The notes under the pieces: model-generated
Databases searched by the model: none
The model's input: only the letters and a program-made list of their open reading frames with translations
Told to the model about the DNA's origin: nothing
Shown: positions 2,303 to 53,895 of the stretch, in pieces
How positions within the stretch are numbered: position 1 is the stretch's first letter
Layout: each line of letters opens with the position of its first letter
Translations under genes and position numbers: made by a program
Origin: Chloroflexota bacterium
GTDB lineage: Bacteria; Chloroflexota; UBA6077; JACCZL01
NCBI GenBank assembly: GCA_020850535.1
Contig: JADZEM010000174.1
Span: forward strand, 1-64,000
DNA length: 64,000 nucleotides
Direction of reading: 5' to 3'

Positions 2303-2689
2303 TCAGGCTCCCTGCGGACGTGGAAGGGCGGACGGCGAGCGCCCCGCCGAGGCGGGCGAGGACAAGACCTGCCAGATACCCCGCAGCGTGGCATCCACTG
2401 CCTGCCACTGACGACGCTCCTCGGCAAGCTGTGACCGCCCGCCATCCGTGATCCGGTAGTACTTGCGGCGGCGTCCGCTCTCCGCCGTCTGCCAGCGCGC
2501 CTCGATGAAGCCGAGCCGTTCGAGGCGATGCAGGACCGGGTAGAGCATGCCGTCCGTCCACTGGATGTGGCCGCCAGACAGCTCCTGCACGCGCTTGAGG
2601 ATGGCGTAGCCGTAGCTGTCGCCGTCGGCCAGGATCGCGAGGACCATCGGGGTGGAGGATGCGGCGATCAGGTCTTTGTTGATCTCCAT
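2303..2689 (-). CDS. PadR-family transcriptional regulator
   Basis: A 128-residue PadR-type winged-helix repressor. Residues 1-85 show the family signature: DLIAASSTPMVLAILADGDSYGYAI, then GHIQWTDGMLYPVLHRLERLGFIEARW, and GRRRKYYRITDGGR for the wing. An ATG at 2689 preceded by AGGTGA gives the family-standard N-terminus; an upstream in-frame ATG would add 29 unrelated residues. It is the first gene of a two-gene minus-strand operon with the permease-prefix membrane protein, an arrangement in which PadR proteins usually repress their own operon. Confidence 0.9.
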   Translation of the reverse strand: MEINKDLIAASSTPMVLAILADGDSYGYAILKRVQELSGGHIQWTDGMLYPVLHRLERLGFIEARWQTAESGRRRKYYRITDGGRSQLAEERRQWQAVDATLRGIWQVLSSPASAGRSPSALPRPQGA

Positions 2690-2755
2690 CGGGTCACCTG
2701 TGAGGCAGCGCGCCGGAGGGCGCACGCCGATCTCAGCTCCATGTCTTGCACCTCT

Positions 2756-2776
2756 ATACATAGCAGTCCAATACAT
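2756..2776 (-). promoter_or_regulatory. Putative PadR operator: ATGTAT direct repeat
   Basis: Upstream of the PadR gene, the minus strand reads ATGTAT, nine bases, ATGTAT, within an A+T-rich island in otherwise G+C-rich DNA. PadR proteins typically bind sites built on ATGT/ACAT half-sites near their own promoter. The assignment as operator is inference. Confidence 0.45.
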
Positions 2777-12972: not shown

Positions 12973-13827
12973 TCAGCCGGCGGTGCGCCAGCGCGCGACG
13001 CCCAGCGTCACCGGGGCGCTCCCGCGAACGACCAGCACGCCATCGCGCTCCTCCAGCAGCTCGGCCATCGCGGAGCGCAGGCGACGGTCGGCCTCGCTGC
13101 CCGGCACGACGTACAGCCGACGCCGCAGCCGGGCCAGCGCACCGTCAGGCGAGCCCATCGGGAACGGCTCAACCTCGATCACGGTCGTTTCGATGGGGCC
13201 GAGACCCAGGTCTTTCAGCACCGCCGCCAGCTGCGGGAAGTGGGGGGCCGGCAGCCGCTCCTCGCCGTGCACCAGCGGCCAGAACGGCGCGATCCACGCC
13301 TGCGGCGGCACTGCGAAAAGGGCGATGGCCGCCCAGCGGCGGGCCGCGCCCGACATCCAGCGTACGAACGGCTCGATGTCGAGGAACGGGTAGACCGTGT
13401 GCGACGAGAACACGGCGTCACCGCGCAGGTCCGGCAGCTCCTGCCAGCGTGACGGCATCAGGCGGACGTTCGCGATGCCACGCGCTCGGGCGTCTTCCGT
13501 GAGCGTCTCGCCCATGATCGGGCTCGGCTCGACGGCCACCACCTCGCGGACGGCTGCCGCCAGCGGCAGCGCGAAGCGGCCAGCCCCCGCCCCGACATCA
13601 ACCAGGGTGTCGGTGGGGCGCAGGTGCGGGCGCAGGATCTCGACGACCGCCGCGTCGTCCTGGCGACTTCGGCCCGCCCGAAAGCTCTCCACGAAGGTGG
13701 GCCGAAAGTCGGTCCCGGACTCCCAGGCCGGATCGCGCAGCCGCTCGCTCTGCGCCCGGTGGGCCAGCGCCATCTGCTGCCAGCGACGGCCGGCCGGGGT
13801 TGCGGCGTCGGGGCGATCCTGGCTCAT
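12973..13827 (-). CDS. Class I SAM-dependent methyltransferase
   Basis: A 284-residue cytoplasmic methyltransferase. Motif I is TLVDVGAGAGRFALPLAAA, followed by the acidic VVAVEPS loop that binds the adenosyl ribose and a motif II-like AVFSSHTVYPF. The start ATG at 13827 (MSQDRPDAA) is chosen because everything further upstream in this frame is translated from the inverted-repeat element at 13916-14132. No good Shine-Dalgarno site is visible. Substrate unknown; the layout resembles small-molecule methyltransferases. Confidence 0.75.
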   Translation of the reverse strand: MSQDRPDAATPAGRRWQQMALAHRAQSERLRDPAWESGTDFRPTFVESFRAGRSRQDDAAVVEILRPHLRPTDTLVDVGAGAGRFALPLAAAVREVVAVEPSPIMGETLTEDARARGIANVRLMPSRWQELPDLRGDAVFSSHTVYPFLDIEPFVRWMSGAARRWAAIALFAVPPQAWIAPFWPLVHGEERLPAPHFPQLAAVLKDLGLGPIETTVIEVEPFPMGSPDGALARLRRRLYVVPGSEADRRLRSAMAELLEERDGVLVVRGSAPVTLGVARWRTAG

Positions 13828-13915
13828 CACGGGAAACTCGTCTGCTCCAGCAAGCGTCTGCGCGGGGAGTGTAGCCGCCACACGGTGAGCCCCGCGAACA
13901 ACCACCATGCAGTCG

Positions 13916-14132
13916 CAGGGCGATTGCATGATGGGCACGTCCCGCAGCGTCGTCGGGGCTTGAAAGCCCCGCCTACGATCCTGCAGTCGCTGCGCGACGC
14001 TCCAGTCGCACCAGTGCCTGCCGTTCCCGACGGCCGTCGCGCAGCGACTGAATGACTGTGGTCGGGGACTGAAGTCCCCGACCGCCCGTTCCATGATGCT
14101 TCGGGTACACCAACGAACATGCAACCGCCCTG
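13916..14132. mobile_element. MITE-like inverted-repeat element, copy A (217 bp)
   Basis: The element ends in 15-bp terminal inverted repeats, CAGGGCGATTGCATG (13916-13930) and CATGCAACCGCCCTG (14118-14132), with one mismatch. Inside are two short hairpins, GTCGGGGCTTGAAAGCCCCGC and GTCGGGGACTGAAGTCCCCGAC, and a nested inverted pair CAGTCGCTGCGCGAC/GTCGCGCAGCGACTG, so the whole unit folds into one long stem. It has no coding capacity. It is nearly identical in structure and equal in length to copy B ten bases downstream. Confidence 0.85.
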
Positions 14133-14142
14133 AGTCACGAAC

Positions 14143-14359
14143 CGGAGCGATTGCATGTTGATGTCGTCGTGCCGCCGCGTCGGGGCTTGAAAGCCCCGCC
14201 TACCATCCTGCAGTCGCTGCGCGACGCTCCAGTCGCACCAGTGCTTGCCGTTCCCTGCGTCCGTCGCGCAGCGACGGCGTGACTGTAGGCGGGGACTTCA
14301 GTCCCCGACCGCCCGTTCCATGATGCTTCGGGTACACCAACGAACATGCAACCGCCCTG
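14143..14359. mobile_element. MITE-like inverted-repeat element, copy B (217 bp)
   Basis: Same orientation and exactly the same length as copy A. The left end CGGAGCGATTGCATG has two changes from copy A; the right end CATGCAACCGCCCTG is identical. The internal hairpins and CAGTCGCTGCGCGAC inverted pair are kept. Divergence between the copies is concentrated in the first 40 bases and around 14250-14290. It ends 135 bases before cysK. Confidence 0.85.
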
Positions 14360-15669: not shown

Positions 15670-17025
15670 TCAGAAGGCCGGCGGCGTCTGGACGTTGACG
15701 GTCACGTTCTTCCGCTGCGTGAAGCTCTCAAGCATGCCCTCAAGCGAGAACTCCCGACCGATACCGCTCTGCTTGTAGCCGCCGTACGAGTGCCCTGGCG
15801 TCTGTCCGAGGCCCTGGTTGACCTGGACCCAGCCCGCCTCCACCGCGTGCGCTGTCCGCAGCGCCCGTCCGATGTCGTGGGTCCAGACGTAGGCGGCCAG
15901 CCCGTAGTGGGAATCGTTCGCCATGCGGATGACGTCCTGCTCGTCAGTCCAGCGGATCGCGACCAGGACCGGCCCGAAGATCTCCTCGCGGGCGATGCGC
16001 CAGTCGTTAGAGACGTCGGCGAAGACCGTCGGGAGGGCGAAGTACCCGGCTGACAGCGGACCTTCCTTCGGCGGCAACCCGCCAAGCACCAGGCGCGCAT
16101 CCGCCCGTTCGAGGCCGTCTGCGACGTACGAACAGACCTGCTTGAACTGCTTCTCGTTGATCAGCGTCCCGATGTCGCTGGCCTCGTCGAGCGGATCGCC
16201 CAGCCGCAGCGTCGCGACCTTCACGGCGAGCTTCTCCAGAAAGCTGTCGAAGATCGAGGCGTGCAGGAACAGCCGTGAGCCGGCCGTGCACGACTGGCTC
16301 TGGCGGGTGAAGCGCATCGCCGCGATGATGCCGTCAACCACCCAGTCCTCGTTCGCGTCGGGGAACACGATGGACGAACTCTTGCCGCCCAGCTCCAGCG
16401 AGACCGGCACGACCCGCTCGGCGGCAGCGCGCATCACCAGTTTCCCGACCTCTGTGGAGCCGGTGAACGAGAGCTTGGCGATGCCCGCATGTTGGATCAG
16501 CGCGCTGCCGCACTCCTCGCCGAGGCCCGTCAGCACGTTGAGCACGCCCGGCGGCAGGATCTCGGAGGCCACCCGCGCGACGAGCAGCACACCCAGCGGC
16601 GCATCTTCGGCCGTCTTGAGGACGATGGTGTTGCCGGTGCAGAGGGCCGGCGCGATCTTGAGCGCGGCCAGGAGGACGGGCGCATTCCAGGGGATGATCG
16701 CGCCGACGACGCCGAGCGGCTCGCGTCGGGTGTAGCTCAGAACCTGCTCGCCGAGCGGGAGCGTCTCACCCTTCAGCTCGCTACCAAGGCCGCCAAAGTA
16801 GCGGAAGATGTCTGCCGAGAGGCGCGCCTCATTGCGAGCCTGGGTCCGCAGGGCGTTTCCCGTCTCCAGCGCAATGATCCGCGCCAGCTCCTCGCCGCGG
16901 GCATCCAGCGCATCGGCGATCCTCAGCAGCAGCCGACCTCGGTCGCGCGGGATCACGGTGCGCCAGGAGGCGAACGCGGCCTGGGCGGCCTGGACCGCCC
17001 GATCCACGTCGGCGGCACGCACCAT
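15670..17025 (-). pseudogene. Aldehyde dehydrogenase lacking its N-terminus
   Basis: The frame encodes most of an NAD(P)-dependent aldehyde dehydrogenase: IIPWNAP with the Asn of the active site, SLELGGKSS with the general-base Glu, RQSQSCTAGSR with the catalytic Cys, and EEIFGPVL. The homologous sequence starts abruptly at VRAADVDRAVQAA, so about 35-40 residues of the usual N-terminal strand and NPATGEV segment are missing. An ATG at 17025 could start a 451-residue product. Further upstream the frame is antisense to a binding-protein fragment. The break coincides with the start of that fragment, indicating a rearrangement. It may still be expressed, but loss of the N-terminal oligomerisation strands makes activity doubtful. 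Confidence 0.7.
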
Positions 17026-18300
17026 GTCACGGTCAACCTCTTCAATGGGCTTGTCGGGCTCGACGCCGACCTCAACCCGGTGCCGGATCTCGCAGAGAGC
17101 TGGGTCGTCTCTCCGGACGGCAAGACGGTGACCTTCACGCTGGCGTCGGGTGTGCTCTGGCACGACGGCCAGCCGTTCACCTCGGCAGACGTCGCGTTCA
17201 CGTTCCAGGACATCCTGCTCAAGTACCACTCGCGCACCAGGGCCGGATTGGAGCACGTCCTCGAAGGGATCGATGCGCCAGACCCCCAGACCGTCGTCAT
17301 GCGATTCACGTCAGCGTATGGCCCGCTGCTCCAGCGCCTCGACGTGGTGGAGGCGGCCATCCTCCCCAGACACATCTACCAGGGCAGCGACCCGGAGCAC
17401 ACCGACGCCAACCTGCACCCGGTCGGGACCGGGCCGTACCGGCTGGCCGAGTATCGCAGCGGCGACATGGTCCGGCTGGTACGGAATGAGCGCTACTTCA
17501 AGCCTGGCCTGCCCTACCTGGACGAGCTGGTGTACATCATCGTCGCCGACACGGCCACGGGCGTCTGGGCCTTTGAGCGCGGGGACGTCGATCTGCTGAC
17601 CTCGACGCCGCCCACCGAGATGGCTCGGCTCCAGGCAGGCGGAAAGGCCGTTGTCAAGACGGCTGGCTTTGGCGACGGCAACTCGAACTGCCAGGAGACG
17701 ATGTTCTTCAACCTCCGGCGTCCGATCCTCCAGCGTCGTGAGGTCCGGCAGGCCATCGTCCACGCCGTTGACCAGCAGCGCATTCTCGACGAGGTGCGCT
17801 TCGGCCTGGGCAAGGTGGGGAGCAGCCCGATCTCCAGCGCCCTGGCCTGGGCGCACCATCCCCACGTTCGGCGCTACCCGCACGACCCGGCGCAGGCCGA
17901 GCGGCTGCTCGACGACGCCGGCTGCCGGCGGGGTACAGATGGCGTCCGCTTCAGCCTGGGCATGCCGTCGCTGGCCGTCCTGGAGAAGCTGCACGAGGCG
18001 ATCCGCCGCGATCTCGCTGCCGTGGGGATCGCCGTCCAGATTCGGCCGATGGAGTTCAACGCCGCGCTCGACACGCTGTTCATCAAGCGCGAGTTTGACG
18101 TCAGCATCTGGGGCTACTGCAACGGCCCAGACCCCGAGGTTGGTGTGACGCGAGCCCACGTCACCTCGAACATCAAGCCGATCCCGTTCGCGAATGTCGC
18201 CGCGTACGCCAACCCACGCGTGGACGCGCTGCTTGAGCGCGCCGCCAGCCTGATCGACCGGACCGAGCGCGCCGCCGTCTACGCCAGGATTCAGGAGGAG
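17023..18300 (+). pseudogene. Family-5 ABC solute-binding protein fragment (both ends missing)
   Basis: The reading frame from HVTVNLFNGLVGLD onward matches dipeptide/oligopeptide/nickel-type binding proteins: DLAESWVVSPDGKTVTF, LASGVLWHDGQPFTSADVAFTF, VGTGPYRLAEYRSGDMV and RREVRQAIVHAVDQQ. The signal peptide and about 60-80 N-terminal residues are absent. At the 3' end the frame passes directly into an aldehyde-dehydrogenase tail at YARIQ/EEIFGP, removing the C-terminal lobe. No ribosome-binding site or start is present. The open frame continues to 18600, so it has not accumulated stops, which suggests a recent event. Confidence 0.75.
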
Positions 18301-18600
18301 ATCTTCGGTCCCGTCCTCTCGGTGATCGAGTTCACCGACGTGGATGAGGCGGTCCACATCGCGAACGGCACCTGCTACGGCCTGGGCGCGTCGGTCTGGA
18401 CCCGCGACATCCAGCGCGCGATTCAGCTCGCGAAGAGCATTGAGTCCGGCCAGGTCTACGTCAACCAGTACGGCTCGGCCGGCGTCATCGGTGCGCCGTT
18501 CGGCGGCTACAAGAACAGCGGCTTCGGGCGGACGAACTGCGCCGACACGATCCTGGAGTACACCCAGATCAAGGCGGTCGTGTTCAACGCCGGCCAGTAG
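18292..18600 (+). pseudogene. Duplicated 3' end of an aldehyde dehydrogenase gene
   Basis: Bases 18292-18600 are about 96% identical (11 differences in the 300 bases from 18301) to 23992-24300, exactly 5,700 bases away. Both end at the same GGCCAGTAG stop. It encodes EEIFGPVLSVIEFTDVDEAVHIANGTCYGLG through the C-terminus, without the catalytic Cys or Glu. Fused in frame to the binding-protein fragment, it forms a chimeric ORF. Identity begins at CAGGAGGAG, which also fits the expected IQEE of the binding protein, so the joint lies in a short shared sequence. Confidence 0.85.
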
Positions 18601-19334: not shown

Positions 19335-20849
19335 CTACGAGGGCAGGGCCACCACCACCGACTTGACCTCGGTGTACAGCTCCAGCGCGTAGTGCCCCAT
19401 CTCACGGCCCCAGCCAGACTCCTTGTAGCCGCCGAATGGCAGCGCGGCGTCGAAGACGTGGTAGGTGTTGATCCAGACCGTGCCGGCCTTGAGTTCGGCC
19501 GCCAGCGCGTGGGCCTTCGCCACGTCCTTCGTCCAGATGCCGGCCGCCAGGCCGTAGGTCGTGTCGTTCGCGATGCCGGCCAGCTCGTTGATGTCGTCGA
19601 ACGGCAGCGCCACCACGACCGGCCCGAAGATCTCCTCCTGGACGATCTTCATCTCCTGCTTGGCGTCCACAAGCACCGTCGGTTGGAAGAAGTAGCCGCG
19701 CTCGCCGAAGCGGCTGCCGCCGACCAGCGAGCGAGCGCCCTGCTCCGCGCCAGACTGGAGGTAGCCGGTCACGCGCCGCAGCTGCTCGTCGGAGATCAGC
19801 GGCCCCATCTGGGTGTCGGGGTCGAAGGCGTTGCCGAGCTTGATGCCCTCGGCGGCGTCCGCCACGCCCTGGGCGACCTCGTCAAAGACCTTCCGCTGCA
19901 CGTACAGGCGGGAGCCGGCGTTGCAGCACTGGCCGTGGTTGAAGAAGATCGCGTTGGACGCCCCGGCGATGGCGGCCGGCACGTCGGCGTCGTCGAACAC
20001 GATGTTGGGTGACTTGCCGCCCAGCTCCAACGAGACCTTCTTGAGGTTGCCGGCCGCCGCCTGGACGACGATCTTGCCGACCTCGCCCGAACCGGTAAAG
20101 GCGACCTTGTCCACGTCCGGATGCGCCGCCAGGGCCGCGCCGGCCGTCTCGCCAAAGCCGGTGACGATATTCACGACGCCGTTCGGGATGCCAGCCTCGG
20201 CGATCAGCTCGCCGAGGCGCAGGGCCGTCAGCGGTGTCTGCTCGGCCGGCTTCAGCACCACCGTGCAGCCCGTCGCCAGGGCCGGGCCAAGCTTCCAGGC
20301 CGCCATCAGCAGCGGGAAGTTCCAGGGGATGATCTGCGCGACCACGCCAATCGGCTCGTGGCGGGTGTAGGCGAAGAACCTGTGGCCCGGCAGCGGGATG
20401 TTCGAGATCGGGATGGTGTGGCCCTCGATCTTCGTGGCCCAGCCGGCCATGTAGCGGAGCAGATCGACGGCCAGCGGCACGTCGGCGGCCCGGGCCACCG
20501 CCACCGGCTTGCCGTTGTCGAGCGCTTCGAGCTGGGCGAACTCCTCAGCGTTCTGCTCGAGCAGGTCGGCCAGCTTCCAGATCATCCGGCCCCGCTCGGA
20601 CGGCGAGACGCTCCTGCGCCACGGGCCGACCTCGAAGGCCCGGCGAGCAGCCGCGACGGCCTTCTCGACGTCCGCCTTGTCGCCCTCAGCCACCTGGGCA
20701 ATGACCTCTTCGGTGGCTGGATCGAACACGTCGAAGACCTTGCCAGACGCCGCCTGCACCCACTGGCCGTCGATGAGCATCGGGCGCGGGCTGCCGACGA
20801 ACTCGGCGACGTTCGCGCCCAACCCCGGCCTGCTCTCTGTCAGTACCAC
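19335..20849 (-). CDS. NAD(P)-dependent aldehyde dehydrogenase (class 1/2, betaine- or phenylacetaldehyde-type)
   Basis: A 504-residue cytoplasmic enzyme oxidising an aldehyde to the acid. Active-site residues are all present: Asn177 in IIPWNFP, Glu275 in LELGGKSP and Cys309 in NHGQCCNAGSR, the double-Cys form typical of ALDH1/2-like enzymes. The cofactor loop FTGSGEVGK (251-259) is intact. The GTG at 20849 follows GAGAAGGGG by seven bases; the longer frame adds 20 residues without a ribosome site. The putative promoter is TTGAAT-17-CATAGT, whose -35 lies inside a 52-bp palindrome. The aldehyde substrate is unknown. Confidence 0.9.
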   Translation of the reverse strand: MVLTESRPGLGANVAEFVGSPRPMLIDGQWVQAASGKVFDVFDPATEEVIAQVAEGDKADVEKAVAAARRAFEVGPWRRSVSPSERGRMIWKLADLLEQNAEEFAQLEALDNGKPVAVARAADVPLAVDLLRYMAGWATKIEGHTIPISNIPLPGHRFFAYTRHEPIGVVAQIIPWNFPLLMAAWKLGPALATGCTVVLKPAEQTPLTALRLGELIAEAGIPNGVVNIVTGFGETAGAALAAHPDVDKVAFTGSGEVGKIVVQAAAGNLKKVSLELGGKSPNIVFDDADVPAAIAGASNAIFFNHGQCCNAGSRLYVQRKVFDEVAQGVADAAEGIKLGNAFDPDTQMGPLISDEQLRRVTGYLQSGAEQGARSLVGGSRFGERGYFFQPTVLVDAKQEMKIVQEEIFGPVVVALPFDDINELAGIANDTTYGLAAGIWTKDVAKAHALAAELKAGTVWINTYHVFDAALPFGGYKESGWGREMGHYALELYTEVKSVVVALPS

Positions 20850-20924: not shown

Positions 20925-20953
20925 CTATGGCGCAGACCACCCTGACTATTCAA
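20925..20953 (-). promoter_or_regulatory. Putative promoter of the aldehyde dehydrogenase at 20849
   Basis: On the minus strand TTGAAT (20953-20948) and CATAGT (20930-20925) are separated by 17 bases. The -35 element lies within the left arm of the 52-bp palindrome, so a protein bound there would block RNA polymerase. Confidence 0.5.
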
Positions 20954-20988
20954 ACACGGAATATTCCGTGTTTGAATAGTCAGGGTGG
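20937..20988. promoter_or_regulatory. 52-bp perfect palindrome with two overlapping 19-bp operator dyads
   Basis: The 26-base arms are perfectly complementary with no loop, centred between 20962 and 20963 on GGAATATTCC. Each outer arm holds CTATTCAAA/TTTGAATAG. Two 19-bp sites overlap: CTATTCAAA-C-ACGGAATAT (20946-20964) and its mirror ATATTCCGT-G-TTTGAATAG (20961-20979). These match the dyads at 22761, 25122, 31807, 31835 and 31972. There is no T tract, arguing for an operator over a terminator. Confidence 0.75.
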
Positions 20989-21055: not shown

Positions 21056-22549
21056 CTACAGCTGGATCACCACCGACTTCACCTCGGTGTACAGCTCCAG
21101 CGCGTTGTGGCCCATCTCCCGGCCCCAGCCGGACTGCTTGAAGCCGCCGAACGGCAGGGCCGGATCGCCGACGTTGTAGCAGTTGACCCAGACCGTCCCC
21201 GCGCGCAGCTTCGCGGCCACCCGGTGGGCCTTGCGGACGTCCGTGGTCCAGATGCCGGCGGCCAGGCCGTAGGTCGTGTCGTTCGCCCGCTGCGCCACCT
21301 CTTCGATGTCGTCGAACGGCATCGCCGAGATGACGGGGCCGAAGATCTCCTCCTGAGCGATCCGCATGCCGTCCTGCACGTCGGCGAAGACCGTCGGCGG
21401 GACGAAGTAGCCGTTGGCCAGCTCGCCCTCGGTCAGGCGCGCCCCGCCGACCGTCGCCCTGGCCCCCTCATCCGCCCCAAGCTGCAGGTAGCTAGTGACC
21501 CGCTCGATCTGCTGCTGCGAGACCAGCGGCCCGATCTGCACATTCGGATCGAGGCCGTTGCCGACCTTCAGCTCTGAGGCGAAGTTCGACAGGCGCTCCA
21601 CGAACTCGTCGTGCACCTTGCGCTCGACGAAGAGGCGTGTTCCAGCGCTGCAGATCTGTCCGGAGTTGGCGAAGACCGCCATCGCCGCCCCGGGGACGGC
21701 TGCGTCAAGGTCGGCGTCGGCGAACACGACGTCTGGCGACTTGCCGCCCAGCTCCAGGGACACCCGCTTCAGGTTCAGCGCCGACGAGCGGATGATCTCC
21801 TGGCCCGTCACGTGTGACCCGGTGAAGGCGACCTTGTCGACGTCGAGGTGCCGCGCCAGGGCCGCGCCGGCCGTCTCGCCGTAGCCGGGCACCACGTTGA
21901 CGACGCCATCGGGAACCCCAGCCTCCTGGCACAGCTCGGCGAAGCGGAGCGGGGTCAGCGGCGCCTCTTCGGCCGGCTTGAGGATCACGGTGCAGCCCGT
22001 CGCGATGGCCGGCCCGACCTTCCAGATACAGGCGCCGAGCGGCCCGTTCCAGGGGATGATCGCGCCGACGACGCCGACCGGATCCTTGAGGGTGAACGAG
22101 ACGTACTCGCCGGGCAGCGAGTTCTCGATGGTCTCGCCGTGGATGGCCGTCGCCTGTCCAGCGTACCAGCGGAGCATCCCGAGCGCCCGCCGCCTGGTGG
22201 ACATGGTGCGGCTGACCGGCGCGCCCATGTCGAGCGTGTCGAGGGTGGCAAGCTCCTCGAAGTGCTCCTCCACCAGATCGGCCAGTTTGAGCAGGATCGC
22301 CTGCCGCTCGTACGGCTTGACCTTGCTCCACGGCCCCTCGAACGCCGCCCGCGCCGCCCTGACCGCCCGGTCGATGTCGACGGCGTCACCCTCGGCGACC
22401 GTCGCGAGCACCTCCCCCGTGGCCGGATTGACGCTCTCGAAGGTCTTGCCCGAGGCCGCGTCGACCCACTGACCGCCGATCAGCATCTTCTTCGGCGTGC
22501 CGTCCAGGAACGGATGCCGCGTGTTGGCCCATGCGCCTGCTAGCGCCAT
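21056..22549 (-). CDS. NAD(P)-dependent aldehyde dehydrogenase
   Basis: A 497-residue enzyme of the same family as its neighbour, with Asn168 in IIPWNGP, Glu266 in SLELGGKSP, Cys300 in NSGQICSAGTRL and the cofactor loop AFTGSHVTGQ. It is full length, beginning MALAGAWANT with the oligomerisation strand MLIGGQWVDAASGK (22-35). It is transcribed away from the dehydrogenase at 22816; the 266-base gap contains a TATAAT and a 19-bp dyad. Together with 19335 it forms a same-strand pair separated by the palindrome. The substrate cannot be told apart from related aldehydes. Confidence 0.9.
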   Translation of the reverse strand: MALAGAWANTRHPFLDGTPKKMLIGGQWVDAASGKTFESVNPATGEVLATVAEGDAVDIDRAVRAARAAFEGPWSKVKPYERQAILLKLADLVEEHFEELATLDTLDMGAPVSRTMSTRRRALGMLRWYAGQATAIHGETIENSLPGEYVSFTLKDPVGVVGAIIPWNGPLGACIWKVGPAIATGCTVILKPAEEAPLTPLRFAELCQEAGVPDGVVNVVPGYGETAGAALARHLDVDKVAFTGSHVTGQEIIRSSALNLKRVSLELGGKSPDVVFADADLDAAVPGAAMAVFANSGQICSAGTRLFVERKVHDEFVERLSNFASELKVGNGLDPNVQIGPLVSQQQIERVTSYLQLGADEGARATVGGARLTEGELANGYFVPPTVFADVQDGMRIAQEEIFGPVISAMPFDDIEEVAQRANDTTYGLAAGIWTTDVRKAHRVAAKLRAGTVWVNCYNVGDPALPFGGFKQSGWGREMGHNALELYTEVKSVVIQL

Positions 22550-22632: not shown

Positions 22633-22760
22633 ACCAGCGCTCGTGGGGAACGGCGGGTACGGAAGTAGCCGCTCGCGCTGCGGCCCAGAGCATCTGCGCC
22701 GGGCCGAGTGCGCGCCCGAGCGGCCGGCGAAGACCAGGGCGCGACCTCGACCTTGATACT

Positions 22761-22779
22761 CTATTCAAACTTTGAATAG
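22761..22779 (+). promoter_or_regulatory. Operator dyad CTATTCAAA-C-TTTGAATAG
   Basis: This perfect 19-bp dyad has nine-base arms around one central base. It sits 37 bases before the GTG of the aldehyde dehydrogenase at 22816, next to a TTGATA (22753-22758) that could be its -35. It is the cleanest member of the operator family described for this region. Confidence 0.75.
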
Positions 22780-22815
22780 ACTGTCAAGGAGCTTTCCGCA
22801 GGGAGGACTAGCATC

Positions 22816-24300
22816 GTGGCAGTGAGCGCTCCGCCTCAGACTCGGGCCCCTGGCATCCTCGAACAGGTTCCTGACGGTGTCCAGTTCATCGGGGGCGTCT
22901 GGACCCCCGCGAAGCACGGCGAGACCATCGCCGTCATCAACCCCGCCTCGGGCGAGCATCTGCGAAGCGTGCCGCGCGGCGGCGCCGACGACGTTGCCGA
23001 GGCCGTGTCGGCGGCGGCGGCGGCGTTCCCGAAGTGGCGCGACCTGAGCGCCACCCAGCGCGGCAACCTGATCCGCCGCTGGGGCGACATCTGCAACCAG
23101 CACGCCGAGGACATCGCGATCCTCGAGTGCCTGGAGGTCGGCAAGCCGTTCAAGGGGCCGGCCAACGTTGGCGACCGCGCCATCTACTTTGCCGGGCTGG
23201 CCGACAAGCTGACCGGCGACACGCTGCCCTCGGCCAACCCGAACGTGCTCGGCATCACCCTGCGCGAGCCGTACGGCGTCTGCGGCAGCATCGTCCCCTG
23301 GAACTTCCCGCCCCACCTGATGATGAGCGACGTGGCCCCGGCCATCGCGGCTGGGAATACCATCGTGGTCAAGCCACCCGAGGACGCGCCGATCACCTGC
23401 CTCTACCTGGCGAAGCTGGCGCAGGAAGCTGGCATCCCGGACGGCGTGATCAACGTCGTCACCGGCTACGGCTCCGAGGCCGGCTCGGCCCTGCCGCTGC
23501 ATCCGCTGGTCCGCCACATGAGCTTCACCGGCTCGCCGGAGACCGGCTCGAAGGTGATGACGGCCTGCGCCCAGCGGCTGATCCCGCTGCACCTGGAGCT
23601 GGGCGGGAAGTCGCCGCAGGTCGTGCTGCGCGATGCCGACCTCAACGCGGCGGTCCCACACATCGTCCGCAACTTCACCAGCAACGCCGGTCAGGTCTGC
23701 GTGGCCGGGACGCGGCTAGTGGTCGATCAGTCGGTGCGCTCGCAGATCGTCGAGGCGATCGCGGCCGAGATGGAGCGGGTGCGGGTTGGCCACTGGTACG
23801 AGGACGTGGACATGGGGCCGCTGATCTCCAAGAAGTAGGAGAATCGCGTGCTCGGCTACATGGACGTCGCGCAGCAGGAAGGCGTCCAGGTGGTCGTCGG
23901 CGGCAACAAGCTCGGCGGGGCCAAGTTCGACAACGGCTTCTTCGTCGAGCCGACGCTCTTCGACAACGTCAAGCCGGACATGCGGGTCGCCCAGGAGGAG
24001 ATCTTCGGTCCCGTCCTCTCGGTGATCGAGTTCACCGACGTGGACGAGGCGGTCCACATCGCGAACGGCACCCGCTACGGCCTGGGCGCGTCGGTCTGGA
24101 CCCGCGACATCCAGCGCGCGATTCAGCTCGCGAAGAGCATCGAGTCCGGCCAGGTCTACGTCAACCAGTACGGCTCGGCCGGCGTCATCGGTGCGCCGTT
24201 CGGCGGCTACAAGAACAGCGGTTTCGGCCGGACTGGCGGCGTCGACACGATCCTGGAGTACACCCAGATCAAGGCGGTGGTGTTCAACGCCGGCCAGTAG
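22816..24300 (+). pseudogene. Aldehyde dehydrogenase interrupted by an in-frame amber codon
   Basis: A full-length aldehyde dehydrogenase frame of 494 codons is broken at codon 341 by TAG (23836-23838). Translation is GPLISKK-stop-ENRVLGYMDVAQQEG; relatives have Gln there (SKKQxxRVLGY), so one CAG-to-TAG change explains it. Both parts are in the same frame with no indel. Glu261 (LELGGKSP) and Cys295 (NAGQVCVAGTR) are in the first part; the C-terminal EEIFGPVLSVIEF and oligomerisation segment are in the second. The start is GTG with GGGAGGA upstream, 37 bases after an operator dyad. The downstream piece may be re-initiated at GTG/ATG near 23848 but would be inactive alone. Recent inactivation, suppression or a sequence error are all possible. 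Confidence 0.85.
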
Positions 24301-24309
24301 GCCCGATGC

Positions 24310-24348
24310 GTGTCTCTGGCGGCAGGCGTGGCCTGCCGCCAGAGACAC
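24310..24348 (+). terminator. 17-bp perfect stem-loop terminator
   Basis: Bases 24310-24326 (GTGTCTCTGGCGGCAGG) pair perfectly with 24332-24348 around a five-base loop. It begins ten bases after the aldehyde dehydrogenase stop and lies between convergent genes, so it can act in both directions. Confidence 0.75.
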
Positions 24349-25121: not shown

Positions 25122-25140
25122 GTATTCAATCGATGAATAC
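25122..25140. promoter_or_regulatory. Operator dyad GTATTCAAT-C-GATGAATAC
   Basis: The same 19-bp architecture as the site at 22761 (arms GTATTCA/TGAATAC, single central C). It lies 58 bases upstream of the glyoxalase-II-like gene and 50 bases upstream of the acyl-CoA-dehydrogenase-like gene, which are divergent, so one site could control both. Confidence 0.65.
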
Positions 25141-25189: not shown

Positions 25190-26389
25190 ATGACTGCCCA
25201 CCAGACGACTCCCACTCCTCTGGCCGAGTCGGCTTCGCTCGCTGAGCGGCGCGCGGCCCTGCTGGCGGCCGTTCAGGCCCTTGCCGCCGAGTTCGCCCAG
25301 GATCGCCAGCAGCGCCAGCGCCGGCGCGAGCTTGACCCGGCCGATGTCGACCGCCTTCGCGCGGCCGCCTACACGCTGACCGCCGTGCCAGTCGAGCAGG
25401 GCGGCCTCTGGGACACGCTGGCGGGATCGGCCCGCCCGGTGGCCGCCGTCCTGCGGGCGCTGGCGCACGGCGACTCGTCCCTGGCCCTGGTCTCGGCGAT
25501 GCACCCCTCCATTCTCTCGCCCTGGCTCGCCTCGACCAGCATCGCGGACGGCGACGAGGAATGGCAGGCGCAGCGAAGCTGGATCTTCCAGACCGTCAAG
25601 GATGGCGACCTCTGGGGCACTATCACCTCGGAGCCGGGCAGCGGCGGCGATCCTGGGAAGACCAAAGCCGTCGCCGTCCGCGACGATGGCCCGACGGGCT
25701 GGCGGCTCACGGGCGTCAAGCATTTCGGCAGCGGCATGGGCATCATGTCGTACATGGTGACGACGGCCATTCCGGAGGGCGAGACGGCTCCGGCCACCTT
25801 CTTCCTGAGGATGAAGGGCGTCCCCTGGGACGGCTCGCAGGGCGCGACCCTGACAGCACCCTGGGACGGCCACGGGATGGTCGCCACCCAGAGCCACGGC
25901 ATGCGGTACGACAGCTTTCCGGCCACGCGGCAGGCCTGGAAGGGCACGCGCGATGCCATCGCCTCGCCGGCCGGGGCCTTCGACAACTTCGTGTTCACGG
26001 CGGTGATCGTCGGGATCGTCGAGGTCGCCTTCGAGACGGCCCGCGCGTCGCTGGCGAAGAAGGCGGGCGCCCTGCGCGCCTACGAGCGGGTGGAATGGTC
26101 GCGCGCGGAGCTGGACGAGTGGACGATCCTCCAGGCGTTCGAGGGGATGACCCGCGCGATGGAGACGAAGGCCCGCCCGAACCGCGACATCCTGAAAGGC
26201 AAGACGGTCATTGCCGAGCTGGCAGAGTCGGCGCTGGGCCGGCTGTCGAAAGTGATCGGCGGCGGGACGTTCGCGCGGTACTCGCCCTTCGGCTACTGGA
26301 ACGAGGATGTCCGCGCGCTCGGGTTCCTGCGTCCGCCCTGGGGGTTCGCCTTCGACCGCCTGTTCGACGGCTCGCTGCCGACGGGATAG
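25190..26389 (+). CDS. Acyl-CoA dehydrogenase-like flavoprotein
   Basis: A 399-residue protein of the acyl-CoA dehydrogenase fold. The N-terminal helical part has LDPADVDRLRAAAYTLTAVPVEQGGLWD; the middle beta-domain contains LWGTITSEPGSGGDPGKTKAVAV, like the TEPGSGSD flavin motif, and GWRLTGVKHFGSGMG. The C-terminal four-helix bundle is shorter in recognisable motifs and the catalytic Glu position is not obvious, so it could be a monooxygenase-type member (DszC/HpaB-like fold) rather than a true dehydrogenase. ATG at 25190 follows GAGGAG; an upstream ATG at 25133 would place the operator dyad inside the message. Confidence 0.75.
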   Translation: MTAHQTTPTPLAESASLAERRAALLAAVQALAAEFAQDRQQRQRRRELDPADVDRLRAAAYTLTAVPVEQGGLWDTLAGSARPVAAVLRALAHGDSSLALVSAMHPSILSPWLASTSIADGDEEWQAQRSWIFQTVKDGDLWGTITSEPGSGGDPGKTKAVAVRDDGPTGWRLTGVKHFGSGMGIMSYMVTTAIPEGETAPATFFLRMKGVPWDGSQGATLTAPWDGHGMVATQSHGMRYDSFPATRQAWKGTRDAIASPAGAFDNFVFTAVIVGIVEVAFETARASLAKKAGALRAYERVEWSRAELDEWTILQAFEGMTRAMETKARPNRDILKGKTVIAELAESALGRLSKVIGGGTFARYSPFGYWNEDVRALGFLRPPWGFAFDRLFDGSLPTG

Positions 26390-30749: not shown

Positions 30750-31769
30750 CTACACCTTCGCCGTCCGGGCGAGCAGCACGATGAAGAACGGCGCGCCGAT
30801 CAGGGCCGTCAGGATGCCGAGCGGGATCTCCAGCGGCCCGGCGCTTCGCCCGATGTTGTCCACCAGCAGCAAGAAGCCGCCGCCCATCAGGATCGAGGCC
30901 GGCAGCAGCACCGGGAAGTTCGGGCCGACCACCATCCTTGCCATGTGCGGCACCAGCAGCCCGACCCAGCCGATGATGCCGCCGATGCTCACGACGGTGG
31001 CCGTCATCAGCGTCGCGCTGACGATGACGATGGCCCACACGCGCGAACGGTCGATCCCGAGCGCCGTCGCCTCGTCACTGCCGAGCGCCAGCACCTGCAC
31101 CTGCCAGCGCACGGCGTACAACAGGCCGCAGGAGAGCGCAACCGGCCAGACCGCGAACAGCACGTCCCGCATGCTGACCCGGGACAACCCGCCCATCAGC
31201 CAGAAGGTGATGGTGGGCAGCGTGTCGACCGGGTTCGCAAGGTACTGCAGGATCGAGATCAACGCCTGGAACAGCGCCGAGATCACCAGCCCGCCGAGCA
31301 CCAGCACGACGGTGGAGCCAGCGCCGACCCAGCGTCCGATCAGCAACGCCAGACCCGTTGCGACGATGGCGAACACGAAGGCCGATCCCTGCACGGCCAG
31401 CCAGGGCAGCTGCAGAACGATCGCCAGCGCCGCCCCGAAGCCGGCCCCGGCCGAGACGCCGAGGATCGCTGGCGAGACCAGCGGGTTGGTGAAGACGTTC
31501 TGATACGCCGCGCCGGAGGCCGCCAGGGCCGCGCCAATCAGCAGGGCGGCCAGGATGCGGGGCAGCCTGACCTGCAGCACGACCGTCTCCATCGTGTCGG
31601 TCCAGGTCCGCGGCAGCGATACCAGCTGCGAGCCGAGAATGCCGAGCACGGTATCGACCGGGATCGGGTAACGGCCGAGCGGGAACGACACGAGGAAGAG
31701 CGCGACGACGCCGACCAGGAGCGCGGCGAGGCGCAGACCGGGGGCGGCGGCAGAGGACGAGGACTGCAT
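30750..31769 (-). CDS. FecCD-family ABC permease
   Basis: The 339-residue permease has about ten membrane helices and the FecCD marks LPRILAALLIGAALAASGAAYQNVFTNPLVSPAILGVSAGAGFGAALAI and GFIGLL-like IGGIIGWVGLLVPHMARMVVG (given here in parts; helices 3-4 and 8). It forms the channel for the ATPase and lipoprotein that follow. It is the first gene of the five-gene minus-strand operon; its upstream region carries two operator dyads and a TATACT -10 box. Confidence 0.93.
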   Translation of the reverse strand: MQSSSSAAAPGLRLAALLVGVVALFLVSFPLGRYPIPVDTVLGILGSQLVSLPRTWTDTMETVVLQVRLPRILAALLIGAALAASGAAYQNVFTNPLVSPAILGVSAGAGFGAALAIVLQLPWLAVQGSAFVFAIVATGLALLIGRWVGAGSTVVLVLGGLVISALFQALISILQYLANPVDTLPTITFWLMGGLSRVSMRDVLFAVWPVALSCGLLYAVRWQVQVLALGSDEATALGIDRSRVWAIVIVSATLMTATVVSIGGIIGWVGLLVPHMARMVVGPNFPVLLPASILMGGGFLLLVDNIGRSAGPLEIPLGILTALIGAPFFIVLLARTAKV

Positions 31770-31806: not shown

Positions 31807-31825
31807 CTATCCAGAGATTGAATAG
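31807..31825 (-). promoter_or_regulatory. Operator dyad (degenerate) CTATCCAGA-G-ATTGAATAG
   Basis: A 19-bp site with one near-consensus arm (ATTGAATAG), 38 bases upstream of the FecCD start and just downstream of the predicted transcription start from TATACT (minus strand of 31834-31839). Confidence 0.5.
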
Positions 31826-31834
31826 ATGGGCCCA

Positions 31835-31853
31835 GTATACATATATTGAATAG
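31835..31853 (-). promoter_or_regulatory. Operator dyad overlapping the FecCD -10 box
   Basis: GTATACATA-T-ATTGAATAG has one good arm and one diverged arm, with its start 28 bases from the neighbouring site. On the minus strand the diverged arm includes TATACT, a probable -10. A protein on this site would occlude the promoter of the ABC/monooxygenase operon. Confidence 0.5.
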
Positions 31854-31971: not shown

Positions 31972-31990
31972 CTATTCGAAGAATGAGTAG
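31972..31990 (+). promoter_or_regulatory. Operator dyad CTATTCGAA-G-AATGAGTAG
   Basis: A 19-bp member of the same family, 112 bases upstream of the molybdenum hydroxylase start. The outer CTATTC/GAGTAG positions are kept with two inner substitutions. Confidence 0.5.
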
Positions 31991-32101
31991 TCAGGCCGGG
32001 CTGGGCGGCGGCTTCTGCGACCGCTTCTCCCAGCCCTGCGCTGTTGCCGGGGCAGCGCCGCTGCCGCACTGCCTGCACCCGGCGTGAGGGAGGACGCATC
32101 G

Positions 32102-34431
32102 ATGGCGACCGTGATGAAGACCAGTCGAGACGTGCGGGGCGTTGGCTTCTCGGTGCCGCGCTACGACGCGCCAGACAAAGTCGTCGGGAAGACGCGGTAC
32201 GTGAACGACGTGATCCTGCCCGGCATGCTGCACGCTCGCCTGCTCCGCAGCCCACACGCCCATGCCCGCATCACGCGCATCGACGTCAGCAAGGCGAAGG
32301 CGCTCAAGGGAGTACGGGCGGTCCTGACGGCGGCGGACATTCCGACGCTCCATCACGGCGCAAAGACGCGCGGCCACGCCATCATGGCCATTGACCGGGC
32401 GATCTTTGCCGGCCAGCCGGTGGCAGCCGTCGCCGCCGACGAGCTGGCGATCGCGGACGAGGCGCTCGACCTGATCGAGGTCGAGTACGAGGTGCTGCCG
32501 GCGGCCGTTGACCCGATCAAGTCGATGGACTGGGATGCCCCGCGCGTCGCCGACGAGGGCACCGAAGCCGACACCTCCGAAGCCCTGGCCCACTCTGGCA
32601 TCGCTGCCACCGCCACCGAGCAGGTGAAGACCGCCCCGAACGTCACCCAGACCTCGAAGCTCGGGCGGGGGATCTCGCGGCGGCGTTCGCCGAGTCCGAC
32701 GTGATCCTGGAGAAGACGTACCACGTTCCGATGGTCCACCAGGGGTACATCGAGACCCATGGCACCGTCGCGCACGTCGATCAGACCGGCCGCATCACGG
32801 TGTACGCCAGCACCCAGGGCTCCTTCAACACGCGGGCCGAGATCGCGGATGTGCTGCAGATCCCCGAGGAGATCGTCAAGGTCATCCCGATGGAGTGCGG
32901 CGGTGGCTTCGGCGCGAAGATCCGCGCGCTGACCGAGCCGATCACCGTCCTGCTCTCGCAGGTGACGCGGCGGCCGGTCAAGTACATCATGACGCGCCGC
33001 GAAGAGCTCGAGGCGGGCATGCCGGCCCCGAGCGTGACCATCAAGCTCCGGACCGGCGTCAAGCAGGACGGCACCCCGATGGCGCTGGAGGGCGAGACGG
33101 TCATCGAGGCCGGCGCGTACTCGGGGGCCGTGCTGACGATGAGTGGCGTATTCCTGGCGTCCGTCTACCAGTGGCCGACCTTCCAGGTGACCGGCTACGA
33201 GGTGCTGACGCACAAGCCGAGCATCGCGGCGTACCGCGCCCCGATGGCCCCGCAGACCGCCTATGTCATCGACTCGCACATGGACCAGATCGCGCGGCAG
33301 CTCGGGCTGGATCCGGGCCAGTACAAGCTGAAGCACCTCCAGCGCGGCGGCGACCTGATGGCGCACGGCCAGAAGTGGGCGGTCAACGGCGCCTGGGAGT
33401 GCCTCGAGCGCATGCTCGAGCACCCGTTCTGGCAGACTCGAGACGCCTGGCGTGAGAGCGGCGGCAAGAACGGCGCTGGCTACCGGGGGACCGGCGTGGC
33501 CGTTGGCGGGTGGGTGCCGGGCGCGCAGCCGTCCAGCGCCACCATGCGGCTCGATACGGACGGCACGCTGACCGTCTTCACCGGCTCGGTGGACATTGCC
33601 GGCACCAATCAGGGCCTCGCGATGATGGCTGCCGAGACCTACGGCGTCGACATCAGCAAGGTCAAGATCGTCACCGGCGACACCGACAGCTCGCCGTGGA
33701 CTGGCCTGAGCGCCGGCTCGAAGACGACCTACTCGGTCGGCAGCGCCGTGGTGGCAGCGGCGAAGGATGCCCGCACCAGGACGCTGAGTGTGGCCGCCGA
33801 CGAGCTGGAGGCGTCTCCGGACGACCTCGACATCGACGGCGACGCGGTGGTGGTCCAGGGCGTGCCGGGCAAGTCGATGACCCTCTCGGCCATCGCGAAG
33901 AAGGCGACGGCGCTGGCCTCGTCGCGCGGCCCGATCATCGGGCTGGGCGCCGCGGGCGTCTCGGAGCTGGCGCCGGCCTTCGCCGCCGAGCTGGCCCGCA
34001 TCGAGATCGACCCGGACACCGGCCAGATCACGCTGCATGACTTCGTGGTCGTGCAGGACGTCGGCAAGCTGATCAACCCGCTCGGCGCGGAGGGCCAGAT
34101 GCAGGGTGGCGCCGTGCAGAGCCTCGGCTTCGCGCTGACCGAAGGTCTGATGTACAGCGACAGCGGCCGGCTGATGAACCCGAGCCTGCTGGACTATCGC
34201 AAGCTCACGGCGGCCGACGTGCCGGACATCGAGACGATTGTGATCGAGGTGCCGGCCCCATCTGGTCCGATGGGGGCGCGCGGCGTCGGCGAGCCGCCAA
34301 TCGTGCCCGCGCTCGCGGCCATCGCCAACGCGGTCCACGACGCCACGGGTGTCCGCCTGACCACGCTGCCGCTCACGCCAGAGCGAGTGGTGCTGGGGTT
34401 GGAAGCCGCGCACCCGAACGGCTCGGCGTAG
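32102..34431 (+). pseudogene. Xanthine dehydrogenase/aldehyde oxidase molybdenum subunit, frameshifted
   Basis: Two frames together encode a normal-length (about 776 residues) molybdopterin-binding subunit of the xanthine oxidase family. The first (32102-32704) ends NVTQTSKLGRGISRRRS; the homologous sequence continues in the next frame as DLAAAFAESDVILEKTYHVPMVHQGY. One base is missing in the G run at 32667-32671. The second part has GGGFGAKI, AYRAPMAPQTAY, the cofactor motifs and the catalytic Glu in ARGVGEPP. The start is ATG 32102 with GAGGGAGGA upstream. No FAD or iron-sulphur subunit gene is nearby. A sequencing error in the homopolymer would restore the gene, so inactivation is unproven. 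Confidence 0.85.
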
Positions 34432-53728: not shown

Positions 53729-53895
53729 GTCGGGGACTGAAGTCCCCGCCTACAGTCGTTCAGTCGCTGCGCGACGGACGCCGGGCACGGCAGGCACTGG
53801 TGCGACTGGAGCGTCGCGCAGCGACTGCAGGATCGTAGGCGGGGCTTTCAAGCCCCGACGCGGGGGCACGACGCGCTCGACATGCAATCGCCCTG
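53729..53895. mobile_element. MITE-like inverted-repeat element, copy C (truncated)
   Basis: Opposite orientation to copies A and B. It contains GTCGGGGACTGAAGTCCCCGC, the inverted pair CAGTCGCTGCGCGAC/GTCGCGCAGCGACTG and GGCGGGGCTTTCAAGCCCCGAC, and ends in CATGCAATCGCCCTG (53881-53895). About 48 bases with the other terminal repeat are missing at the side that touches the gene remnant. Confidence 0.8.

Follow-up and report, generated by a model that had tools for sequence, protein, structure and literature searches.

A perfect 52-bp palindrome as a putative twin operator of a PadR-type regulator in a Chloroflexota bacterium

In the window analysed here, which is the whole 64,000-nucleotide stretch of contig C174 from a Chloroflexota bacterium, a perfect palindrome lies in the gap between two aldehyde dehydrogenase genes on the minus strand. 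The locus raises two questions: what the palindrome does there, and how it came to be exact.

20937-20988, no strand: perfect 52-bp palindrome (arm comparison, whole-genome palindrome count)
20946-20964, no strand: putative operator site 1 of the twin, CTATTC-N7-GAATAT (motif and twin pattern search)
20961-20979, no strand: putative operator site 2 of the twin, ATATTC-N7-GAATAG (motif and twin pattern search)
19335-20849, minus strand: ALDH1, aldehyde dehydrogenase downstream of the twin (Aldedh domain, profile match)
21056-22549, minus strand: ALDH2, Aldedh protein 60% identical to ALDH1 (domain and protein comparison)

Reality and rarity of the palindrome

The first-pass annotation described a loop-free palindrome with 26-base arms, and this is what the assembly holds: the arms (20937-20962 and 20963-20988) are complementary at 26 of 26 positions (100%) around the centre GGAATATTCC. 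Within 499,153 bp drawn from its genome (the window with 18 kb of the adjoining sequence, 20 kb from contig C95 and 397 kb from other contigs; GC 0.69) no loop-free palindrome was longer, the runner-up having 24 bp, and the 52-bp sequence occurs once in the 7.65-Mb genome, where about 4e-8 loop-free palindromes of 52 bp would be expected (p = 0.28 per pair). With the genome in 227 contigs, the exact mirror could have arisen from an imperfect twin through misassembly or chimera formation, but we regard this as very unlikely, as the arms stop at 26 bp on flanks that are unrelated to each other and other genomes have the twin too.

A function as RNA is conceivable because ALDH2 and ALDH1 are co-directional and the transcript of the palindrome folds strongly (z = -6.8); a 24-bp hairpin in the 3' region of ALDH2 would then protect or process the transcript. 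However, the strong fold follows from the sequence being palindromic, the terminator scan found no intrinsic terminator at the palindrome (a GC-rich stem followed by a T run; there is no T run), and the Rfam comparison of the window matched no family. Twins elsewhere are also far less symmetric, and thus pairing is not the conserved property. The suggestion that the palindrome terminates the gene at 21056 is therefore not supported; we rejected the palindrome as a terminator or RNA element and consider an RNA role highly improbable.

Two further proposals fared poorly. An overlap with the -35 element (TTGAAT) of ALDH1 is weak, since TTGAAT (20953-20948)-N18-CATAGT (20929-20924) gives 8/12 promoter matches when counted by eye and the promoter scan, with a threshold of 9/12, reported none at the palindrome. 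Instability is a property of long palindromes and 52 bp is short, so an argument from instability to selection is not supported.

The twin sites and their neighbourhood

The claim of two overlapping operator sites with a common centre held up better. The two sites are 19 bp each and mirror images of one another, with a 4-bp overlap and centres 15 bp apart; each is one mismatch away from CTATTC-N7-GAATAG, and the middle common to both is GAATATTC. The twin pattern TAYTC-N7-GARTAYTC-N7-GARTA is matched at 20947-20978 with 0 mismatches, and the inner half of both sites reads GGAATA, not TGAATA. The centre of the twin is 113 bp upstream of the ALDH1 start, a GTG at 20849 preceded by GAGAAGGGG-N6. 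The best match of ALDH1 was the phenylacetaldehyde dehydrogenase StyD, with a score below its cut-off.

Further sites of the same kind, and the genes next to them, were found in the window:

22761-22779, no strand: perfect putative operator CTATTCAAACTTTGAATAG (motif search)
22753-22782, plus strand: promoter-like TTGATA-N18-TAGACT across the 22761 operator (promoter scan)
22758-22787, minus strand: promoter-like TTGACA-N18-TAGAGT across the 22761 operator (promoter scan)
22816-24300, plus strand: ALDH3, Aldedh protein with one in-frame TAG (ORFs, domain, protein comparison)
25122-25140, no strand: putative operator GTATTCAATCGATGAATAC in the gap between a metallo-beta-lactamase-fold gene and an SfnB-like gene (motif search, domains)
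30750-31769, minus strand: FecCD-family ABC transporter permease (domain match)
31807-31825, no strand: putative operator site upstream of the FecCD gene (motif search)
31835-31853, no strand: second putative operator site upstream of the FecCD gene (motif search)
31972-31990, no strand: putative operator site upstream of the Mo-hydroxylase gene (motif search)
32084-34431, plus strand: XdhA-like Mo-hydroxylase, split into two overlapping ORFs (ORFs, domain and profile matches)

When the own genome was searched with the reversed motif as a control, CTATTC-N7-GAATAG (<=1 mismatch) was found at 7 places versus 1 for the control, and STATTCAANNNTTGAATAS (<=3 mismatches) at 10 places versus 2. Seven of these ten are within C174:20946-31990, namely the pair in the palindrome and the sites at 22761, 25122, 31807, 31835 and 31972, so that about 11 kb of a 7.65-Mb genome holds seven sites alongside aldehyde dehydrogenases, a Mo-hydroxylase and an ABC transporter. 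All sites of the window are intergenic, provided that the SfnB-like gene starts at 25190. Two divergent promoter-like matches (10/12 and 9/12; 0.0 in shuffles) overlap one another within 22753-22787 with the 22761 operator in their spacer, so that a single regulator could shut off ALDH2 and ALDH3 alike.

On other contigs, a site at C95:15282 lies between a minus-strand WtpA-like gene (match below the NCBIfam cut-off) and a gene for a luciferase-like oxidoreductase, and one at C130:45768 lies between a padR gene and moeA, with 3 mismatches, a level at which the reversed control also gives 2 places. The tenth place, C23:89802, was set aside, since by eye it seems to be within a coding stretch. 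The CTATTC-N7-GAATAG search also listed C116:61405.

Several other features were noticed in the window. In ALDH3 the single in-frame TAG separates ORFs 22816-23838 and 23848-24300, and right behind the gene is a perfect 18-bp inverted repeat with a 3-nt loop (24310-24348). The Mo-hydroxylase ORFs (32084-32704 and 32701-34431) overlap, possibly through a frameshift. ORF 16489-18600 (in 15670-18600) joins an SBP_bac_5 domain to an aldehyde dehydrogenase C-terminus, a close repeat of the one in ALDH3; its neighbour on the minus strand, ALDH4, has no N-terminus, so the spot is rearranged or misassembled. Three 48-bp inverted repeats with 35-nt loops form one dispersed family (13952-14082, 14179-14309 and 53729-53859). 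An ORF with the wording of that family (GVPEASWNGRSG...) at 13827-14156 overlaps the first of them, and ORFs of this type are also present in L004 (2590-2913) and L164 (871-1188).

Search for the regulator

The aldehyde dehydrogenases of the best relatives among the genomes searched were 49% identical. From named genomes, the best 80 of 588 relatives of ALDH1 were taken (59-71% identity). A strong PadR match (>190 bits) was beside the aldehyde dehydrogenase gene in five of these 80 loci, all five from Actinomycetota, and all five carried a GTAGTC-type N7 site (GTAGTC-N7-GACTAC; GACTAG in L117), compared to one of the remaining 75 (L123), which indicates PadR as the family of the regulator. L146, with a weak PadR match (26.7 bits), had no site.

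The own genome has four PadR matches. A profile of three of the Actinomycetota PadRs scored 80.1 bits with the protein on C130, 27.5 with that on C203 and 24.7 with that of the window (2303-2776); the PadR on C21 was not among the matches listed. The low score places the PadR of the window in a different subfamily, and we rejected it as the regulator. The C130 PadR has about 188 residues (PadR winged-helix regulators have about 180-200) and matches Pfam PadR above the cut-off. Its nearest profile matches were PadR 5x11 and AphA 1yg2, and its model (pLDDT 93.4) had PadR-family structures as the best fold matches, with modest TM-scores of 0.4-0.6.

At E <=0.001 the C130 PadR found matches in 121 of 201 genomes. 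We took the 30 best PadR loci by protein alone, 29 of them from other genomes, and TAYTCA-N5-TGARTA (<=1 mismatch) was present in 13 of the 30; an inverted repeat, the putative operator, is beside padR or its presumed targets in these 13 and in the five strong PadR-aldehyde dehydrogenase loci. The same pattern was found 0 times in 397 kb of own-genome background, 0 times in 121 kb of the relatives' aldehyde dehydrogenase loci (0/29), and five times in 793 kb of the best 80 ALDH1 loci, two of these being the twin of L087. Exactly 15 bp away there was a second site (<=3 mismatches) in ten of the 13 site-bearing PadR loci; the only other partner distance within 45 bp was 22 bp (L187), and L188 and L189 had no partner. 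A ModA/WtpA match (E <=1e-5) was found in 11 of the 13, versus a single one (L170) of the 16 remaining loci that came from other genomes. Among the control loci ModA/WtpA was found in none (0/29 aldehyde dehydrogenase, 0/9 TetR), and one of the 29 aldehyde dehydrogenase loci had moeA.

The twin pattern itself (<=1 mismatch) occurred at 52 places in 37 of 400 genomes, the own genome included, as against 2 places in 2 genomes for its reversed control. Gene context was read for 30 twin loci among the matches listed. ModA/WtpA was present in 16 of them; TIGR01256 was above its cut-off in all five ModA proteins tested (L213, L214, L215, L220 and L224), and the WtpA-like matches of L207 and L210 were below the NCBIfam cut-offs. 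A molybdopterin oxidoreductase was found in one locus (L211), ALDH1 orthologues in two (L219 and L225) and PadR only in L205. Ten loci fit no Mo, adjacent PadR or aldehyde dehydrogenase gene (L197-L200, L203, L212, L216-L218 and L223), the twin of L223 having a PadR-like gene 280 bp off. Thermogemmatispora aurantia (L087) has the same twin in front of its ALDH1. At the level of sequence, these data show the twin, the conservation of its 15-bp offset and a phylum-wide association with genes for PadR-1-type proteins, ModA/WtpA and ALDH1 orthologues, and twins that adjoin PadR genes and precede ALDH1 orthologues further back the twin-operator claim.

L197-L200 (family f20) contain TTCGA-rich repeats that match the twin pattern, with no PadR or Mo gene alongside. 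In L212 and L217 a DUF6788 gene is downstream of the twin; the L212 protein also matches BTAD and Trans_reg_C, the L217 protein starts like it, and this DUF6788 protein could be another regulator under PadR control.

A promoter-like match overlapped the twin in 13 of 20 twin loci examined (raw count), and in 10 of these 13 TATACT runs into the first bases of the twin, a placement that the twin of the window does not have. Such a placement would suit a repressor.

Some candidates were discarded. Motif matches in L010, L048 and L050 were beside unrelated genes, intergenic without symmetry, or inside a gene. In G022, CTATTCAAGTCCGCTTGAATAA precedes an aldehyde dehydrogenase gene but was not counted as support because its spacer is N10, not N7, and G022 has no C130 PadR match. 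A literature match of the motif to RolR was a chance string in a test fragment.

Could another transcription factor bind the sites of the window, the PadR link being true only of other genomes? Upstream of the C130 padR there is no consensus site, and what ties the motif to PadR is solely the phylum-wide association. Against this, the sites of the window share their core and 15-bp twin geometry with the PadR-linked sites, and TetR, the sole other family searched, was rejected: of its nine TetR_N matches in the genome none is on C174 or C95, and their loci hold no perfect site. We find another factor unlikely.

In the PadR tree (39 rows), the C130 PadR groups with its relative from G007 (96/86) and with L170, next to proteins of family f30 (81/89), and the other three PadRs of the genome are on long branches apart from it. 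The G007 protein is its nearest relative (49%), and the G007 locus has no TAYTCA-N5-TGARTA site. The 13 PadRs with a local site are outside the C130 clade, which weakens the case for the C130 PadR and has lowered our confidence in the preferred explanation. Among the family-f30 genomes in the tree that have a PadR of the wider C130 clade (n=11), none has a local site and 8 of 11 have twins elsewhere; where the context of these was read, modA and ALDH1 were among the adjoining genes. As far as the sequences go, twins away from padR are the trans arrangement that we propose for C130.

It is possible, if doubtful, that the regulon with this operator family and twin answers to aldehydes, the substrates of the aldehyde dehydrogenases, and that the Mo genes elsewhere belong to related but distinct PadRs. 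The cluster of the window is rich in aldehyde-oxidising enzymes, the Actinomycetota PadR that adjoins ALDH1 has a different half-site (GTAGTC), and the site-bearing PadRs linked to ModA are outside the C130 clade. However, sites in the own genome adjoin the WtpA-like gene and moeA, and family-f30 genomes have the same twin before modA and before ALDH1.

From these sequence patterns we consider it probable that the palindrome serves as twin operator in a molybdenum/aldehyde regulon controlled by a PadR-1 protein (C130), and that a template switch mirrored it. Binding, effector, direction of control and the cognate regulator (the PadR on C130) are what we infer. Two PadR dimers would bind the twin, probably cooperatively, and would most likely keep transcription repressed until they are released by a signal related to molybdenum or aldehydes. 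The regulator here would be the PadR encoded beside moeA on C130, and it would control in trans both the WtpA-like gene of C95 and the window's cluster of aldehyde dehydrogenase and Mo-hydroxylase genes.

Origin of the exact mirror and comparison with known regulators

The role as operator accounts for the conserved half-sites, not for the mirrored spacers and flanks. In the twin of the window 7/7 spacer and 10/10 flank positions are mirrored, versus 1 to 6 of 7 and 0 to 6 of 10 at 31 other twin places, not all of which are independent; mirroring of all 17 positions by chance has a probability of about 5e-10. Imperfect inverted repeats in E. coli are reported to become more perfect through template switching (PMC7202029), and by analogy an inverted template switch may have overwritten one half of the twin with a copy of the other, which would mirror spacers and flanks up to 26 bp. 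Such correction is the likely cause of the exact mirror, and the palindrome would then show how inverted-repeat correction can perfect an operator in nature.

Cooperative binding of two dimers is possible, as suggested by the conserved spacing and by the parallel of AphA of Vibrio cholerae, although the 4-bp overlap of the inner half-sites means that simultaneous binding of both sites might clash. AphA belongs to the PadR family, has a winged helix and binds adjacent pairs of its consensus ATGCAA-N4-TTGCAT cooperatively (PMC6855506, as far as the accessible text goes), and this consensus resembles ATTCAA-N3-TTGAAT of the window. In contrast, the spacer is N4 instead of the N3 of the window frame, so the sites of the window are not AphA operators, AphA governs virulence and competence genes, and in the portion available that paper reports neither a 15-bp overlapping twin nor molybdenum. 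CodY likewise has two overlapping sites with a fixed overlap: two dimers occupy two overlapping 15-nt sites, and affinity drops when the overlap is cut by 1 or 2 nt (PMC10415144, excerpt). It differs in being a GAF-wHTH protein of nutrient regulation, by inspection the 19-bp sites with 4-bp overlap do not fit its operator (AATTTTCWGAAAATT sites, 6-nt overlap), and that excerpt mentions no 15-bp twin and no molybdenum. Bacillus subtilis PadR (5x11), which the C130 PadR matches best by profile and by fold, differs in its response to phenolic acids (p-coumaric acid in PDB titles), with TM-scores to the C130 model of about 0.44-0.47. Literature searches by the operator motif, for a PadR-type molybdenum regulator, and for PadR with a link to modA, AphA or aldehyde dehydrogenase gave no relevant paper or title among the matches listed.

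ModE molybdate repressors, which would control modA-type genes, have MOP domains and a different operator. We see about an even chance that the MOP-less PadR-1 proteins are a new class of molybdenum (or tungsten) regulator, which would act through twin operators 15 bp apart on modA/wtpA, moeA, Mo hydroxylases and NAD-dependent aldehyde dehydrogenases, do the job of ModE in this phylum and have a GTAGTC variant in Actinomycetota. From an isolated palindrome the analysis has led to the prediction of a regulon, with candidates for its regulator family and its signal and with operators of rigid geometry. The PadR family is better known for sensing phenolic acids and drugs; if the prediction is true, molybdenum homeostasis in many members of the phylum would rest on a PadR protein.
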